The position numbers and the translations under genes were made by a program. From Mesorhizobium zhangyense (lineage in GTDB: Bacteria; Pseudomonadota; Alphaproteobacteria; Rhizobiales; Rhizobiaceae): 64,000 bases of DNA. Under the pieces are notes generated by a model that searched no databases, was not told where the DNA came from, and worked only from the letters and a program-made list of their open reading frames with translations. Positions 36,747-50,465 of this stretch are shown one piece after another (positions within the stretch are counted from its first letter, which is position 1; the number at the start of each line of letters is the position of its first letter). The stretch is from positions 186,001 through 250,000 of the forward strand of contig NZ_JAAKZG010000002.1 of assembly GCF_011045115.1 (NCBI RefSeq), read 5' to 3'.

Positions 36747-36943
36747 TGTGCCTCATTCATGCTTGTGGTTGATCGGCCGCCGTGCCGATTACCTTGTTGT
36801 CCGGTTTAGCGGACATGCGCGGCATTTCAACCCTTTGTGTCAGAGCTATGGCATTTTGTGAACGATGACGCCGCGACAGGGCCAGACGCCTTGCCTTGTT
36901 GCGCTGCAATATGCATAAGAAACCGCCGCTGGGAGGAAGATGC

Positions 36944-38902
<1,959 letters not shown>

Positions 38903-39233
38903 GGCGTCGGCGGGGTTCCTCGGTCTGAAGGCGATACCAAATTAGAAGTACATCTGTTTCGATTCCGCTTTTGTTTATAGCATCTTACCTGAATCGATTT
39001 GAATACGGATAATTCATTAAAGCATCTTCGGTTGAAAATACGAAGTTGCTTAAGTATTATTATGTCATCGCGAAGGGTGCGACGGCATACCATAAAATTG
39101 TATTTTAATAATAGGCGCTTGCGGTTGCGGCAACGCACGCCCGTCCTTTGTCTCATCGTTGGATTTCGCGAGGGTAGTGGGGGTTATCTCATGCGTCGGC
39201 CCGATATTGGTCGATGTATTCAGGAGGATGGCA
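38903..39233. other. AT-rich intergenic region upstream of the peroxidase gene
   Basis: About 330 bp, clearly more AT-rich than its surroundings between about 38940 and 39115 (for example TTGTATTTTAATAATAGG near 39098). No gene supported. It presumably holds the promoter of the peroxidase gene; base composition unlike its neighbours could also mark an acquired segment. Confidence 0.5.
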
Positions 39234-40823
39234 ATGTCCCTGAAAACAAAGAGCTTGCCCAAGAGCTCCAAGGCAGGCGGACTTCCAACGGAATTGTTGA
39301 ACACGCTCAAGCTGGCCGCCACTGCGGTCAAGACTACCCCCGGCCATGGCGTGGCCGGGCGGCATCCGAACAGGGAAATGCTCGACACGCTTACCGGAAA
39401 CAAGGATCCGGGCATGTTCGGCCGGATGTTTCCCAGGCTGCCGCCATTGCAGGTTTCCGATGCCAAGTTGAAGGCGCTGGCCGAGGCGATGGTGGACGCA
39501 AATCCCGGCGATCCCAATGGAAACAACCCGAATGTGCCGGCCGGCTTCACCTATTTCGGCCAGTTTATCGATCATGACATCACGCTCGACCTCACCTCGC
39601 TCGGCGAGAAGGAGAAGGACCCGCTCGGCATCGAGAATTTCCGTACGCCGAGCCTCGACCTCGACTCCCTCTACGGCCTCGGCCCGGACGGCAGCCCGCA
39701 ACTCTACGCCCGCAATCCCGTCGCTGGCGAAAAGCATGGCCCGAAGTTCCTTATCGGCAAGAACTTCAATTCGGGTGAGGGCGAGTTCCGCAACGACCTG
39801 GCGCGCAGCCCGGAAGGCTTTGCACTGATCGGCGATCACCGCAATGACGAGAACCTGCTCGTTGCCCAGACCCATCTCGCTCTGCTGAAGTTTCACAACA
39901 AGGTTTGCGATACGCTTTCGGCAGCGCCCAATCCGCCGCCGGACGTCTTCCAGGAAGCCCGCAGGCTGGTGACATGGCACTATCAGTGGATTGTGCTGCA
40001 TGATTTTGTCGAGCGCATCACCGAACCCGGCATTGTCGCCAAGATCCTGCACAACGGCCGCAAATTCTACCGCTTCAAGCGCGTGCCCTTCATGCCGGTG
40101 GAATTCTCGGTGGCGGCTTATCGCCTTGGTCACAGCATGGTGCGGCAGCGGTATGCCCACAACAAAGTCTTCACCGCGGCGGATTTCAACCTGTTCTTCG
40201 CCTTCACCGGCTTGTCGGGCGGCATCGTCGGCGATCTCGCCCCGACGCCGCCGACCCCGCCGCCCAACACGGCGTTCCCGCGTCTGCCCAGCAACTGGAT
40301 CATCGACTGGCGCCGGTTCCATGAACTCGGCGACATGGGCGGCGCGCCGGTCAACATGACGGCCTCGCGCAGGATCGATCCTTTCCTCGTGTCCTCGCTC
40401 CACACTCTACCGGGCGGCGGCGGCAATCTCGCCTTCCGCAATTTGAAGCGCGGCGTGATGCTGGGTCTTCCCTCTGGTCAGGATGTCGCGCGGCATATGC
40501 GGATCAGGAACCCGCTGACACCGGCCGAGATCGCGTCGGGAACGGATGGCGCGGTGGCAAAGCAGCAGGGTCTCGATAAGACGACGCCGCTTTGGTACTA
40601 CATCCTGAAGGAAGCCCAGGTGAAGAAGGGCGGACTGGGGCTCGGGCCGGTCGGCGCGACCATCGTCTCGGAGGTTTTCGTCGGGCTCGTGCATGGCGAC
40701 CAGACGTCATACCTCTGGCGCGAAGCCAACTGGAAGCCGACCTTGCCGTCGGCGGTGCCGGGCAAATTCACCTTCGCGGATCTCCTGCGGTTCGTGAACG
40801 ACATCAACCCGATCGGGGATTGA
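39234..40823 (+). CDS. haem peroxidase of the animal (peroxidasin/myeloperoxidase-like) superfamily
   Basis: 529 residues from ATG 39234; AGGAGG ends 6 nt upstream, which rules out ATG 39228 and the upstream TTG. The distal-haem motif FGQFIDHDITLDL places the distal His at 114. The proximal region FSVAAYRLGHSMVRQRY gives His 300, and GDHRNDENLLVAQTHLALLKFHNKV is the conserved substrate-side block. No signal peptide is visible, only a basic N-terminus (SLKTKSLPKSSKAGG), so a non-Sec route or cytoplasmic location is likely. Bacterial members oxidise halides or organic substrates with hydrogen peroxide; this substrate is unknown. It is monocistronic behind an AT-rich region. Confidence 0.85.
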   Translation: MSLKTKSLPKSSKAGGLPTELLNTLKLAATAVKTTPGHGVAGRHPNREMLDTLTGNKDPGMFGRMFPRLPPLQVSDAKLKALAEAMVDANPGDPNGNNPNVPAGFTYFGQFIDHDITLDLTSLGEKEKDPLGIENFRTPSLDLDSLYGLGPDGSPQLYARNPVAGEKHGPKFLIGKNFNSGEGEFRNDLARSPEGFALIGDHRNDENLLVAQTHLALLKFHNKVCDTLSAAPNPPPDVFQEARRLVTWHYQWIVLHDFVERITEPGIVAKILHNGRKFYRFKRVPFMPVEFSVAAYRLGHSMVRQRYAHNKVFTAADFNLFFAFTGLSGGIVGDLAPTPPTPPPNTAFPRLPSNWIIDWRRFHELGDMGGAPVNMTASRRIDPFLVSSLHTLPGGGGNLAFRNLKRGVMLGLPSGQDVARHMRIRNPLTPAEIASGTDGAVAKQQGLDKTTPLWYYILKEAQVKKGGLGLGPVGATIVSEVFVGLVHGDQTSYLWREANWKPTLPSAVPGKFTFADLLRFVNDINPIGD

Positions 40824-40979
40824 ATAGCCCCGCCGCCTGTCGGGCAGAACGCGACGGGCGGCGGTATGGTTAACCAAAGATAACCATGAAATTTACCGAG
40901 ATTTCATGAGTGGTACACTTTCGTAAACTGAATCGCATTCCGGTAAGGACTTGTTAAGGATTGGTCGCGATATTCGTTC

Positions 40980-41094
40980 GTAACTTGAGGGAGAAATCCC
41001 GTTCCTCACCTCCCGAGGAAAGCCAGTTCGCTCAAGTCCCCGTTGTGACAGCAATCAACACTCAGGCGTTCCCTTTGGAACGCCTTTTTCTTTT
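40980..41094 (+). ncRNA. candidate structured trans-acting sRNA
   Basis: No reading frame fits, but the segment folds cleanly. ACTTGA (40983-40988) pairs with TCAAGT (41032-41037) and encloses two hairpins: GGGA-GAAA-TCCC (40989-41000) and TTCCTC-ACCTCCC-GAGGAA (41002-41020). It ends with the terminator GGCGTTCC-CTTT-GGAACGCC and TTTTTCTTTT (41065-41094). The exposed ACCTCCC loop resembles an anti-Shine-Dalgarno sequence, as in alphaproteobacterial alpha-r14/alpha-r15 RNAs. The 5' end is estimated; CTTGTT at 40950 could be part of a promoter. It lies between the peroxidase gene and the convergent iron permease gene. It could also be a long 3' end of the peroxidase mRNA. Confidence 0.6.
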
Positions 41095-41120
41095 CTAGTG
41101 AGGGGAGTTAGCGGCCAGCG

Positions 41121-45727: not shown

Positions 45728-48700
45728 CTACTCCGCCAGCACCCGCGTCGACGGAAACGTCACCTCCACCATCGTGCCTTCGCCGGGCGTCGAGGTAATC
45801 GAGAAGCGGGCGCGGTTGGCTTCCACCATCGCCTTGGTCAGCGGCAGGCCGAGGCCGGTTCCGTCGCCGCGCGCGCGCTTCAGGGCGTTGATCTGCTTGA
45901 AGGGTTTCAGCGCCTGCTCGATCTCGGCGTGGGTCATGCCGATGCCGGTATCGCGCACCCGCATGACGATGTCGCCCGAAGCCTCATAGGCGGTCGAGAC
46001 GATGACCTGCCCGCCGGCCTGCGTGTAGCGGATGGCGTTGGACAGGACGTTGAGCGCGATCTGGCGGATAGAGCGCAGGTCGGCGACCACGTCGGGCAGC
46101 TTCGAGGCGAAGCTGGAGCGGATGATGACGCGCTCGCGGTTGGCCTGCGGCTGCATCATCGCCACCGTCTCGCCCAGCGTGTCGTTGAGCGACACCGCCT
46201 CATGGGCCATTTCCTGCTGGCCGGCCTCGATCTTGGAGATGTCGAGCAGGTCGTTGACGATATCGAGCACATGGTTGCCCGAGCGGTTGATGTCGCGCAG
46301 ATAGTCGCGGTAGCGGTCGTTGGCGATCGGCCCGAATTTCTCGTCCACCATCAGTTCTGAAAAACCGATGATGGCGTTGAGCGGCGTGCGGATTTCGTGG
46401 CTGACGCGCGCGAGAAAATCGGTCTTCTGCGAGGAGGCCCGCTCGGCCACGCTGCGTGCCTGCGTCAGTTCCTCCTCGGCGCGCTTCCATTGGGTGATGT
46501 CGCGCACGACGGCGCAATAGCCGCTCTCGTTGGGCAGGCGGCCGATGGTCATGAACAGTGGAATGAAGCGGCCCTGCGCCTCGCGCCCGATCACCTCGCG
46601 CCCGTCATTGAGCACGCTGGCAACGCCATGGTCCGACATGCCGTTGAGATAGTCATGCGCGGCGCGCTGGCTTTCCATGGCGAAAAGCGAGGCGAAGGGC
46701 TTGCCGGTCACCTCGTCGCTGTCGAAGCCGAACAGCGCCTCGGCTGGCCTGCTGATTGAGCGGATCGTGCCGTCATTGGAAATCAGCACGACGCCGTCGG
46801 TTGCCGTGTCGATGATGGTGCGCATTTCGGCAACACGGCTGTGAAGCTCGTTCTCGCTCGGCGACAGCACCTGAAGCGGCGCGATATCGGCCTCGCCGGT
46901 GCGGCGTATGACCAGCATCAGCGCCTTGCCGCCCTGCCAGGGCACGGAGCGCAACAGCGCCTCGATCGGAAATTCCAGCCCGTCGGCAGTGCGCAGCTTG
47001 AGATGATGCTGTTCGGCCGACGACTCGTCGTCATAGCTTTCGGCAAACAGCGCATCGAGCCCGCCTGCCTCAGCCAGCTGCTCGACCGATTCATAGGCCG
47101 TCAGCGTCAGGAACTCTTCATTGGCATAATGTAGCACATCGCCCGAATGGATCAGCACCGGCACCGGCAGCTTTTCGAGGATCGGCGTGTCAGACGGCGC
47201 GGATTCGCTGGACTCGCAGGCGATAGGCTCCGGGGTCTCTTCGGCCGCAGCGGCATGTTCGGTGGTAGCTCCGTCGGCATCGTTGCCGTTTGCTGCAACT
47301 GGCCGGTCATCATCGCGCGATAGCCGGCCTGCATCGTCGATGCCGGTAACCGGAGGAATGGTATCGTCCGCAGCGTCCCCGATGACGGGCTCGTCCCGCG
47401 AGACGTCGACATACGTCTCTTCCGGCGCGCCTGCGTCTTCGCCTGGCTTGTCGGCCGTTGCCTCAGCTGCCAGATCCGCTTCCGCGGCATCAGCCGCAGG
47501 AGCAAACATTTCGCCCTGAACCTCGGCAGGGCGCGTTTCCGACTCGGTTAGCGTTTGGACGATTGGCTCCGATGCAGCGCCTTCGGCTTCCTGCAATTCG
47601 ACAGGCGAAACCTCGTCTGCCGAACCGAGCAAGGGTTCTGCCTGCGGTTCGACCGTCTCCAGCCTGCCTGCATCGTCATTCGCCGGCTGCTCATCGATTT
47701 CGCTCTCAGCCGCGCCGGCAGTCTCGCCGCGCTGCTTCAGCCTTTCGCCGATCTCGCGAAACGCGCTGCGCTCGATGGGGGAAAGGCCTTTTTCCGTCGC
47801 GGCAGCGGGGCGATGCTCGGCAAGGCGGATGACCTTGTCGGCGAAGCGGCGGTTGTCGGGCTTCGGCACGATGGTCAGCGCCGGCACCTCGCCCTGGAAC
47901 GGGTCGGCGGCCTGCGTGCTTTCAGGCGTCGGTGTTTTGTCGACGGTTTCTTCGGCCGCCATGCTTTCGCGCGGCGCGCCGGTCGAGGGCACCAGAACCA
48001 GCCCAAGGCCCTCCGGATCGGTCACGGCATCGGCCTTGCGGGCGACGCCGAAACCGCGAAAACCTTCAAAGTTGCGGTCGCGGCCATAGACGGGCAACGC
48101 GGCGAGATCGACGGGGATCTTCAGATCCGTTCCGGCCACCGGCCACAGCACCGAGCGGCCCGACCACGTGTCGCGACGCTCGAGCAGGTCGGCAATCTCG
48201 CCCGAGGGATCGAGCCCGAAGGTCATGGCAACATCGCGGAACCGCCGGCCGATCACGTCTGCTGCAAGCGGTCCGACCACCTCGATGAATTCGCTGGAGA
48301 CCGCGCTGAATTTCCCCTCGGCATCGGTGCGCCAGACGAAACGCGTGGGCGGCGTCAAGCGGTCGATCTCCACCGGCCTGCGTTCCGCGGCGGCTTCGGT
48401 CCTGCCCGCTTCGCTGGCATTGAAATACCAGTTATCGTGGTCGCCTTTGGCGGCGGCCTCTGCAGGCGTTTCCGAAATCGGCAGCTGCGGCGATTCATCG
48501 TCTTCCGGAGCGGAAACCTTCGCTGCGGGACTTTCCGTTGCGGCTGTCACCGGGCTTTCGGCAGTGGTGGCAGGCTTTGCGTCGGTCGATGCCGAGACAT
48601 GCGCCAGCACATCAGCCACCGAGGCGGCCGGCACCAGCGGAACCTCGGCCACCGGGGCCGCAGGCGCAATAACCTTGTCGTCGGGAGCTTCAGCCGTCGC

Positions 48701-49384
48701 AATCTCGTCGTCGGCGAACTGGCGCTCGTCGATCACCACCAGCAGATGCCGCGCCGGCTCATCGACCAGCCGCGCCAGTCCGGCGGGGAAGGAGCGCTCC
48801 GCTCCCGGCACCATGCGCTTCACCAGCCGCTCGCCTTCACCGCTTAGTTCCGCGACCATCTCGGCCAGCGTCTTTTGCGAGATGCCGAGCTCGGCGAAAC
48901 CTTGCGAGGCTGCCTCCACCGCACCGCGAGCGTCGATCAAGGCTGCGAACTGGCCGCGCTCGTTCAGGCCGCTGATGGCGCGCTCGGCGATGTCGCCGTC
49001 GCTGCGACCGCTGGCCTGTATGGCCGGCACCGCCAGCAATATCGCGTCCTCGCCGTCCGGCAGGGTCAGGGCAGTCGCGGTGAAATTGACGGCGCGGCTG
49101 CTGACCCCGGTCGCCAGCCGCACGGCAAGGTTCCGGTCGCGGCCGATTCGCGGAAAGCCGCTCGTCGCCATGATCTGGCGTCTGGCGGTCGGCCCGAGCA
49201 GGGGCGGCTCGCCGATGATCGATTCGATGTCCGGATAGCCGAGCAGCGCCGCACCCGGTCCGTTCGCCCAGATCACCTGGTCGATGTCGGTCGTCAGGAT
49301 GGCCAGCGCGTCGCCGGCCGCAAAACGCTGCCGCACGTCGTCGAGTATGGCTACATCGATGAACGAATACGAAGCTGACGGCAT
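45728..49384 (-). CDS. PAS-domain hybrid-less sensor histidine kinase, PleC/DivJ/PdhS-like
   Basis: Very large kinase, about 1220 residues. It opens with a PAS-like segment (AILTTDIDQVIWANGPGAALLGYPDIESIIG). A middle region is long, acidic and Ala/Glu/Pro-rich (about 220-340 and 480-760, likely disordered). Two further PAS units follow (EKLPVPVLIHSGDVLHYANEEFL; DTATDGVVLISNDGTIRSI). The kinase core is the H-box ARVSHEIRTPLNAIIGFSEL near residue 996, the N-box SNAIRYTQAGGQVIV and the G-boxes DTGIGM and GDGTGLGLPL. The H-box with GFSE resembles the PleC/DivJ/PdhS group of cell-cycle kinases that act on DivK. No transmembrane helix is seen, as in PdhS. A CtrA-type box lies just upstream. GTG 49393 is an alternative start. 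Confidence 0.8.
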   Translation of the reverse strand: MPSASYSFIDVAILDDVRQRFAAGDALAILTTDIDQVIWANGPGAALLGYPDIESIIGEPPLLGPTARRQIMATSGFPRIGRDRNLAVRLATGVSSRAVNFTATALTLPDGEDAILLAVPAIQASGRSDGDIAERAISGLNERGQFAALIDARGAVEAASQGFAELGISQKTLAEMVAELSGEGERLVKRMVPGAERSFPAGLARLVDEPARHLLVVIDERQFADDEIATAEAPDDKVIAPAAPVAEVPLVPAASVADVLAHVSASTDAKPATTAESPVTAATESPAAKVSAPEDDESPQLPISETPAEAAAKGDHDNWYFNASEAGRTEAAAERRPVEIDRLTPPTRFVWRTDAEGKFSAVSSEFIEVVGPLAADVIGRRFRDVAMTFGLDPSGEIADLLERRDTWSGRSVLWPVAGTDLKIPVDLAALPVYGRDRNFEGFRGFGVARKADAVTDPEGLGLVLVPSTGAPRESMAAEETVDKTPTPESTQAADPFQGEVPALTIVPKPDNRRFADKVIRLAEHRPAAATEKGLSPIERSAFREIGERLKQRGETAGAAESEIDEQPANDDAGRLETVEPQAEPLLGSADEVSPVELQEAEGAASEPIVQTLTESETRPAEVQGEMFAPAADAAEADLAAEATADKPGEDAGAPEETYVDVSRDEPVIGDAADDTIPPVTGIDDAGRLSRDDDRPVAANGNDADGATTEHAAAAEETPEPIACESSESAPSDTPILEKLPVPVLIHSGDVLHYANEEFLTLTAYESVEQLAEAGGLDALFAESYDDESSAEQHHLKLRTADGLEFPIEALLRSVPWQGGKALMLVIRRTGEADIAPLQVLSPSENELHSRVAEMRTIIDTATDGVVLISNDGTIRSISRPAEALFGFDSDEVTGKPFASLFAMESQRAAHDYLNGMSDHGVASVLNDGREVIGREAQGRFIPLFMTIGRLPNESGYCAVVRDITQWKRAEEELTQARSVAERASSQKTDFLARVSHEIRTPLNAIIGFSELMVDEKFGPIANDRYRDYLRDINRSGNHVLDIVNDLLDISKIEAGQQEMAHEAVSLNDTLGETVAMMQPQANRERVIIRSSFASKLPDVVADLRSIRQIALNVLSNAIRYTQAGGQVIVSTAYEASGDIVMRVRDTGIGMTHAEIEQALKPFKQINALKRARGDGTGLGLPLTKAMVEANRARFSITSTPGEGTMVEVTFPSTRVLAE

Positions 49385-49424
49385 GCGCTGCACGAACTCC
49401 CAGGCGGAGACAGATTCTCTGCGG

Positions 49425-49439
49425 TTAACTCTTTGTTAA
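49425..49439 (-). promoter_or_regulatory. CtrA-type box upstream of the cell-cycle kinase gene
   Basis: TTAA-N7-TTAA: on the minus strand TTAACAAAGAGTTAACC, the standard CtrA dimer arrangement. It lies about 32-41 bp upstream of the kinase start. A second TTAA-containing sequence (GGTTAACGCG) occurs at about 49502. CtrA binding is inferred. Confidence 0.65.
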
Positions 49440-49548
49440 TAACAAGGCGGCGGGGCAAACGTCCACAAAACAGCGCGTTTGAGCACCGAAACCCGATGGT
49501 TTGGTTAACGCGCCGCGATGGCTTGACCCGCTTGGATGACGGTTTTGT

Positions 49549-49579
49549 TGCAGTGCACAAAAGATATTGCAATGCACCA
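49549..49579 (+). promoter_or_regulatory. two PhaR-type boxes upstream of the phasin gene
   Basis: TGCAGTGCACAA (49549-49560) and TGCAATGCACCA (49568-49579), 19 bp apart start to start. Both fit the consensus TGCRNYGCASMA described for rhizobial PhaR, as I recall it. PhaR represses phasin genes until PHB granules titrate it away. The phasin start is 77 bp further downstream. Confidence 0.65.
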
Positions 49580-49655
49580 TTGGCTGCGCTATATGGAGAT
49601 TACGCATGAACGAGACCGGCTTTCGCAAGATCGGTCCACCGAAAAGGATGGAAAT

Positions 49656-50117
49656 ATGTCCAAGACCGCAACCAAAACCGCCGAATTCGCCAACGTTGAA
49701 TTCCCGACCTTCGATGCCTCCAAGGCCACCGACCAGTTCCGCGCCTTCGCCGAAAAGGGCGTCGAGCAGTCGAAGGAAGCCTACACCAAGATCAAGTCCG
49801 GCGCCGAAGAGACCCAGAAGGCTTTCGAATCGACCTTCGAGACCGCCAAGGCTGTCGGCAGCGAACTGTCGCTCAAGACCATTGCCACGCTCCGCACCAA
49901 TGCCGAGACCGGCTTCTCGCATCTCGAAGCCCTGTTCGGCGCCAAGTCGCTGTCCGAGGTGATCGAGCTTCAGACCGCTTTCCTGCGCAAGGGCGCCGAG
50001 ACCGCCGTCGAGCAGGCCAAGGAATTCCAGGCCGTTTCGACCAAGGCTGCCACGGACGTGACCAAGCCGATCAAGGATGTCTTCGAAAAGACGTTCAAGG
50101 ACCTCAAGGTCGCCTGA
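49656..50117 (+). CDS. phasin family protein
   Basis: 153-residue helical protein starting MSKTATKTAEFANVEFPTF at ATG 49656; AAGGATGG lies just upstream. Phasin pattern: FRAFAEKGVEQSKEAYTKIKSGAEETQKAFESTF, then SHLEALFGAKSLSEVIELQTAFLRKGAETAVEQAKEFQAVSTKAATDVTKPIKDVFEKTFKDL. Phasins coat polyhydroxybutyrate granules. The upstream frame (from 49536) is not used: it would contain the PhaR-type boxes. An alpha-r14-type sRNA follows 11-20 bp after the stop, so the phasin mRNA 3' end and the RNA gene overlap or abut. Confidence 0.9.
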   Translation: MSKTATKTAEFANVEFPTFDASKATDQFRAFAEKGVEQSKEAYTKIKSGAEETQKAFESTFETAKAVGSELSLKTIATLRTNAETGFSHLEALFGAKSLSEVIELQTAFLRKGAETAVEQAKEFQAVSTKAATDVTKPIKDVFEKTFKDLKVA

Positions 50118-50127
50118 TTTTCAGGTG

Positions 50128-50252
50128 ACTTCTTGAATACCCGAAGGGCGGTACCTCCTCCCACCAAACTTCGGGCATGACGGCCGGAATCCTCCTCCCT
50201 CCGGCCAGATACAAGGAAAAGACCGGCACCTCCTCCCGCCGGTCTTTTTCTT
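50128..50252 (+). ncRNA. alpha-r14 family (NfeR1-type) trans-acting sRNA
   Basis: Three consecutive hairpins, each exposing an exact CCTCCTCCC in its loop. Hairpin 1 is CCCGAAG / CTTCGGG (50140-50175, loop motif at 50154). Hairpin 2 is GGCCGGA / TCCGGCC (50182-50206, motif at 50191). Hairpin 3 is GACCGGC / GCCGGTC (50221-50244, motif at 50229), followed by TTTTTCTTTTT, a Rho-independent terminator. Three anti-Shine-Dalgarno loops of identical sequence and a length near 123 nt are the hallmark of the alpha-r14/NfeR1 family of Rhizobiales, which silence many ABC-transporter mRNAs. The 5' end is estimated. Confidence 0.85.
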
Positions 50253-50388
50253 TTTGGGCAAGGCGTTGCGCACTTTCCTGTGACTCTTATTCGCCCTGCG
50301 GCCAAATTGACCGGAATAACCGTCGCCAAGCGTCTTGAAATCTCCGTCGTTTGTCCGTATTGGAGCGCTTCGCCAGACGATGGCCTGC

Positions 50389-50465
50389 GCGGTTGTAGCT
50401 CAGTTGGTTAGAGCGCCGGATTGTGGATCCGGAGGTCGGTGGTTCGAGCCCACCCAACCGTACCA
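50389..50465 (+). tRNA. tRNA-His (GTG)
   Basis: Full cloverleaf of 77 nt including encoded CCA. Acceptor GCGGTTG pairs with CAACCGT, D-arm GCTCAGTTGGTTAGAGC, anticodon stem CCGGA-TTGTGGA-TCCGG with GTG, variable AGGTC, T-arm GGTGG-TTCGAGC-CCACC. It has a G1-U72 pair, A73 and no encoded G-1, the alphaproteobacterial form of tRNA-His that is read by an unusual HisRS. Confidence 0.97.

Follow-up and report, generated by a model that had tools for sequence, protein, structure and literature searches.

Does the intergenic stretch behind a peroxidase gene of Mesorhizobium zhangyense encode an RNA of its own, and if so, what turns it on and what does it act on? A sequence-only reading of the window (the whole stretch of 64,000 nucleotides, or 64 kb, analysed here) had proposed a structured small RNA (sRNA) with an anti-Shine-Dalgarno loop and possible iron or oxidative-stress targets. 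Judged by its sequence, the stretch is an independent sRNA gene with a terminator at its end (Table 1), which would be transcribed on the plus strand from about position 40982, at AACTTGAG. The closing stem, the GGGA-GAAA-TCCC hairpin, the hairpin with the ACCTCCC loop and the terminator described in that reading are all found in the window sequence.

Table 1 Features of the sRNA locus, in window coordinates
Feature	Position	Strand	Evidence
AcsA, acetoacetate-CoA ligase, conserved upstream neighbour	36896..38902	+	TIGR01217, 1028 bits over cut-off 520.9; synteny 42/47 loci
Conserved upstream element, AAATTTACC..GATTTCA..GTGGTACACTTTCGTAAA	40868..40927	+	Alignment of homologous upstreams
CtrA-type box TAAGGACTTGTTAA (TAA-N7-TTAA)	40944..40957	+	55/59 distinct BLAST-found upstreams; consensus from PMC3616915
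-10-like element GATATT (GATAGT in most relatives)	40969..40974	+	Constant distance from box and from AACTTGA
sRNA gene, ~113 nt	40982..41094	+	Predicted 5' end; sequence elements, homologues, covariance model
P1 5' arm ACTTGAG, last G common to P2	40983..40989	+	Fold, alignment pairs
P2 hairpin GGGA-GAAA-TCCC, GNRA loop	40989..41000	+	Two-sided changes in 3/4 pairs; new stems in distant homologues
P3 hairpin TTCCTC-ACCTCCC-GAGGAA, loop 41008-41014	41002..41020	+	Loop CCCC-type in most relatives
P1 3' arm CTCAAGT	41031..41037	+	Fold, alignment pairs
Conserved C-rich linker plus TGACAGCA	41038..41063	+	Alignment, homologue counts
Intrinsic terminator: hairpin 41064-41085, T-rich tract to ~41094	41064..41094	+	Scan; two-sided changes in 5/8 pairs
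PdhS/CbrA-like PAS-HisKA histidine kinase, conserved convergent neighbour	45728..49393	-	NF041593 PdhS, 1156.8 bits; synteny 41/47 loci
Palindromic TAA-N7-TTAA box upstream of kinase	49424..49439	-	15/15 relatives placed

Homologues and structure of the RNA

BLAST with window positions 40930-41100 has matches in 62 of the 394 family genomes. A scan of named genomes with a promoter-plus-transcript pattern finds at least 116 stretches; among the matches listed are Mesorhizobium, Aminobacter, Pseudaminobacter, Aquamicrobium and unclassified Rhizobiaceae, and named M. huakuii, M. ciceri WSM1271 and other Mesorhizobium carry the sRNA. Promoter features had a part in the choice of homologues: the BLAST query took in sequence from 40930 on, GATA[GT]T or GATA[GTC]T was a requirement of the pattern scan and of the cutting of homologues, and a loose upstream match was also demanded in the cutting. 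Of 188 loci, four were off-pattern (L055, L056, L059 and L148) and 48 had repeat cores, leaving 136 distinct cores drawn from the BLAST matches and the pattern-scan matches listed. Counts of loops and P3 use 135 distinct homologues, with L007, which has no standard P1 3' arm, left out. Fifty representatives, clustered at 90% identity, form the alignment A1, the source of the covariance model R1.

R1 matches 136 of the 394 family genomes at E<=0.01 and 84 at E<=1e-5, with a single match per genome at the latter threshold; these E-values are rough, and family matches above 1e-5 are weak and mostly unverified. In an order-level search of 297 genomes, 23 genomes outside the family match weakly (E 1.6e-4 to 0.0094), which is treated as chance, and plasmid records gave no match. 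As far as tested, the sRNA is a family-level RNA within the genomes searched. Twenty distant loci were fetched. One of them, L236 (E 1.1e-4), with neither synteny nor promoter, is counted as a false match. In another, L237 (E 7.5e-4), the kinase synteny is present and the motif is matched, but the sequence is weak. Both are omitted from the 18 distant loci used below to count promoter boxes, and both are retained in the 47 loci of the synteny comparison and in the 19 loci of the P1 permutation.

The 115-nt segment of the window folds at -37.5 kcal/mol (z = -3.91), and none of 200 dinucleotide shuffles is equally stable. The proposed pairs are formed by 95.1% of the cells of A1 compared with 91.4% in shuffles, and 36 cells have two-sided changes compared with 9.7 in shuffles; in neither measure is any of 500 shuffles as high. 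When the partners are slid along A1, pairing falls to 23-49%. The covariance comparison that had been proposed as a check on the structure does bring out compensatory changes. In A1 they are confined to P2 (three of four pairs) and the terminator (five of eight pairs), the two elements that RNAalifold retained. The GNRA hairpin P2 is missing from the single-sequence minimum-energy fold of the window copy, and its support comes from the compensatory changes in relatives. Distant loci also place a GNRA-type loop on new P2 stems, TCGGA-GCAA-TCCGA in L219 and ATGGA-GCGA-TCCAT in L221. As for the terminator, called a textbook case in the sequence-only reading, the hairpin and T-rich tract are present and conserved in relatives. 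It is this conservation that supports it, since a scan of the region, which finds one terminator where shuffles give 0.6, is weak evidence by itself.

P1 is nearly invariant and has no two-sided change among the 50 representatives, so that in A1 it rests on conservation. Its pairs are replaced in some distant homologues (TGGGG/CCCCA in L218 and L224, TCGAG/CTCGA in L220), and its own arms pair modestly better than permuted arms (p 0.034, 19 loci including the false match L236). P3 is variable in both length and sequence, and its varying length makes its MAFFT alignment unreliable; its z is below -1 in 29 of 49 representatives, with a mean of -1.04 against mononucleotide shuffles. The stretch had also been said to have no coding potential. 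A TTG-started frame is in fact open through the window copy, and it is stop-free in 76 of the 135 homologues. At the P1 3' arm, however, the 135 divide about equally among the three phases of this frame (49/47/39), showing that no ORF is conserved, and a small protein is ruled out on this ground.

Promoter box and neighbouring kinase

A consensus scan of the region finds no usual sigma70 promoter (0.2 expected). In 122 of the 127 distinct upstreams listed, TAA-N7-TTAA precedes GATA[GTC]T by 11-12 nt, and GATA[GTC]T precedes AACTTGA by 6-7 nt; this set was partly selected on promoter features, GATA[GTC]T being a requirement for cutting. The shuffle rate of this motif is 0.13%, and the adjacent region from -170 to -61 has it in one of the 127. 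By origin, the box is present in 55 of 59 BLAST-found and 68 of 69 pattern-found upstreams among the matches listed. A cleaner test than the promoter-selected set is given by the 18 distant loci (L218-L235) that were found by the transcript model alone: 11 have the exact box and six have it with a mismatch at one position (L220, L222, L227, L230, L231 and L233), while L232 was not scored. Within the 64 kb window the motif occurs at two places only, the sRNA promoter and upstream of the kinase.

The CtrA consensus of Sinorhizobium meliloti is given as TAA-N7-TTAAC in the accessible part of its source (PMC3616915). TTAA is followed by G in 110 of the 127 upstreams listed and by C in 10, so most copies miss the final base of this consensus. 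The interior of the sRNA box is conserved beyond what a CtrA site needs, and a second factor may read the box. At 40942-40959 it is the interior GG..TTG that is conserved, whereas the interiors of the kinase boxes are variable. Upstream of the box, at 40868-40927, lies another strongly conserved stretch, which contains TTAACC-like and TTTAC/GTACC-like elements.

AcsA, the sRNA and a convergent PdhS/CbrA-like kinase make up the conserved context. Of 47 loci compared with flanks reaching at most about 3.8 kb, 42 have AcsA upstream on the strand of the sRNA and 41 have the kinase downstream in the opposite orientation, some of the misses being contig ends or genes beyond the flank. The kinase is labelled PdhS/CbrA-like because its score of 1156.8 bits against NCBIfam NF041593 (PdhS) is under the cut-off of 2000, with the best stretch in the C-terminal half. 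The CbrA of S. meliloti is presumably SMc00776, which adjoins acsA2. Kinase-start regions were fetched for 16 loci and the gene was placed in 15 of them (L273 is unplaced, and L282 was placed by extrapolation from residue 737). TAA-N7-TTAA is found within 220 nt upstream of the kinase, on one or both strands, in all 15 placed relatives; the background in the kinase loci is 14 of 463 tiled 220-nt segments, true sites included. In S. meliloti the cbrA promoter is bound by CtrA according to ChIP-seq data in the accessible part of PMC4433202, and for this reason the kinase box is a plausible internal control for the meaning of the motif in this lineage.

The reading we favour, and consider somewhat probable, is that the gene belongs to the CtrA cell-cycle regulon and encodes a trans-acting sRNA. 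The box TAA-N7-TTAA, whose centre lies about 31 nt before the start, would be bound by CtrA, which would activate a promoter with the GATAGT/GATATT -10-like element; locus and promoter together would place the sRNA in the PdhS/CbrA-DivK-CtrA circuit. Control by CtrA is favoured by the family-wide conservation, the covariation, the frequency of the box, the kinase synteny and the kinase's own box, as well as by the CtrA-bound cbrA promoter. Speaking against it are the predominance of TTAAG over TTAAC, the over-conserved box interior and the lack of a box at ctrA, where the 400 nt upstream of the gene in 10 genomes hold none of the form TAA-N7-TTAA.

The conserved GG..TTG, the final base that is mostly G and the further conserved element at 40868-40927 are also arguments for a conserved trans-acting sRNA whose promoter is controlled not by CtrA but by another regulator, with genomic inertia accounting for the kinase neighbour. 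We regard this as possible, though on the unlikely side. Against it, every placed relative has TAA-N7-TTAA upstream of the kinase, there with a divergent interior, and the promoter of the S. meliloti counterpart is CtrA-bound (PMC4433202, accessible part).

Transporter genes are absent between the sRNA and the kinase in 12 of the 47 loci, and also in L068 and L069; they are a variable insertion. Every NCBIfam match of the transporter proteins is under its cut-off. In L039, L061, L062, L222 and L227, a solute-binding-protein match of 28-31% lies on the sRNA strand between the sRNA and the kinase. Since it replaces the usual opposite-strand genes, the interval has been filled more than once. Where transporter genes are absent (e.g., L034, L049 and L219), the kinase adjoins the sRNA directly and convergently, an arrangement that would suit a cis-acting RNA tuning the 3' end of the kinase mRNA. 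Such a role is very unlikely, because in the window and many relatives the transporter genes intervene, with the kinase end 4.6 kb off, and the RNA is still conserved.

C-rich loop and predicted targets

In the favoured CtrA-controlled reading, the RNA of about 113 nt would fold into a three-way junction of the closing helix P1, the GNRA hairpin P2 and P3 with its C-rich loop, followed by the conserved C-rich linker and the terminator. Loop and linker would most likely pair with mRNAs that have G-rich translation starts, and translation would be tuned in this way. Action in trans through C-rich segments is favoured by the 135 distinct homologues: 87 have CCCC within the P3 loop or at its border, and in 106 the pyrimidine run after P1 is CCCC, CCCCC or TCCCC. 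In the window copy the loop reads ACCTCCC and the linker contains CCCC.

The sequence-only reading had instead taken the loop for an anti-Shine-Dalgarno element, with iron or oxidative-stress genes as possible targets, and the window copy does have the ACCTCCC loop, with a solute-binding protein and a permease adjoining. As a property of the family this fails: a CCTCC-like P3 loop is found in two of the 135 homologues, as opposed to CCCC in 87. The iron and peroxide neighbours are not conserved either. An animal-haem-peroxidase gene (PF03098) lies between AcsA and the sRNA at 39159-40823 on the plus strand, and it is matched in five of the loci compared, which belong without exception to the window's genome or to its one congener. 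With the peroxidase genus-specific, the transporter genes variable and their NCBIfam matches below the cut-offs, the iron or oxidative context is lost and this explanation becomes highly improbable. Although same-strand genes stand upstream, a processed or degraded 3' end of an upstream mRNA, which for the peroxidase had been named as the case that would undo the sRNA, is scarcely credible in view of the sRNA's own conserved promoter region, its conservation in loci without the peroxidase and its compensatory changes.

GGGG occurs shortly before the start of ctrA in all 10 genomes examined. Duplexes of P3, the linker and the whole RNA were computed with the leaders of ctrA (10 genomes) and gcrA (eight genomes, the start not being found in two of the 10), and three of 54 tests reach p<=0.05, as with shuffled leaders. 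Because this is the level of chance, the case for the favoured reading does not draw on pairing with ctrA or gcrA. The likeness of these duplexes to shuffles, a P1 without two-sided change and the promoter-biased choice of homologues count against the favoured reading.

Relation to described sRNAs

A covariance search of the sRNA region with Rfam finds nothing at the gathering score, and under permissive settings the best matches do not rise above chance. Membership of an Rfam family is ruled out (e.g., mmgR/suhB scores 13.6 bits against a cut-off of 41), and the earlier view of a structured sRNA candidate outside the described families holds. Annotation would also gain a new RNA family in this sRNA. 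The accessible parts of the open literature searched contain no account of an sRNA encoded at this locus.

The likeness to CcnA of Caulobacter crescentus lies in a CtrA box in the promoter, identified here by sequence only, and in a CCCC loop. As described in the accessible part of PMC8959179, CcnA is presumably CtrA-activated and its CCCC loop acts on GGGG in the ctrA and gcrA leaders. It is, however, 182 nt long and encoded at the replication origin, whereas the present sRNA of about 113 nt stands beside AcsA and the PdhS/CbrA-like kinase (PMC8959179). The pairing of the present sRNA with ctrA or gcrA is unsupported by energy, and the likeness described is one of features. Caulobacter CcnA is reported to perturb the cell cycle of S. 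meliloti, in which a CcnA-like homologue is not clearly detected, as far as the accessible text goes (PMC8959179). The sRNA could be the rhizobial counterpart of CcnA, CtrA-activated, with CCCC feedback on ctrA, gcrA or the PdhS/CbrA branch, arisen at the kinase locus and not at the origin, and kept across much of Rhizobiaceae sensu lato; this extension is decidedly doubtful.

Two S. meliloti cell-cycle sRNAs, EcpR1 and GspR, are named in the accessible part of a 2020 review (PMC7143759). EcpR1 (SmelC291) resembles the present sRNA in being a rhizobial sRNA with two structured domains and a link to the cell cycle (PMC4414408). According to the available text of that source, it lies between divK-pleD and rpmG, is controlled by stress and ppGpp, and has the SL1 loop UCCGCCGCAUCU, which is missing from the window copy of the present sRNA. 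Locus (AcsA and kinase, not divK-pleD/rpmG) and loop rule out identity. GspR (SmelC775) targets ctrA and in this respect is a rhizobial sRNA acting on the CtrA circuit, as the present one may be. It is 143 nt long, conserved in Sinorhizobium/Ensifer, and encoded between SMc03844 and SMc03845 (hypothetical proteins), with no known promoter signatures before its 5' end according to the accessible part of PMC5928217. Identity is ruled out by locus, AcsA and the kinase being the flanks here.

In M. huakuii 7653R, the intergenic sRNA candidates MH_s11, MH_s16 and MH_s22, listed without an Rfam name in the accessible part of PMC5596092, have flanking-gene orientations as expected for the present locus, and one of them may be the present sRNA gene. 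Mapping through tmRNA and RNase P did not single out one candidate, because the relative positions, including the distance between the sRNA and RNase P, differ between genomes.

The Rfam families ar14 (RF02344) and mmgR/suhB (RF00519) are similar in being alphaproteobacterial sRNAs with C-rich or CCUCC-type loops. The sRNA region falls short of RF00519 by the scores given above, and it has no match to RF02344, for which 58.8 bits are needed. A true ar14 member stands elsewhere in the window, at 50135-50253 on the plus strand (68.8 bits); it has three CCTCCTCCC loops, follows an ORF at 49536-50117 and precedes a tRNA gene at 50389-50462.
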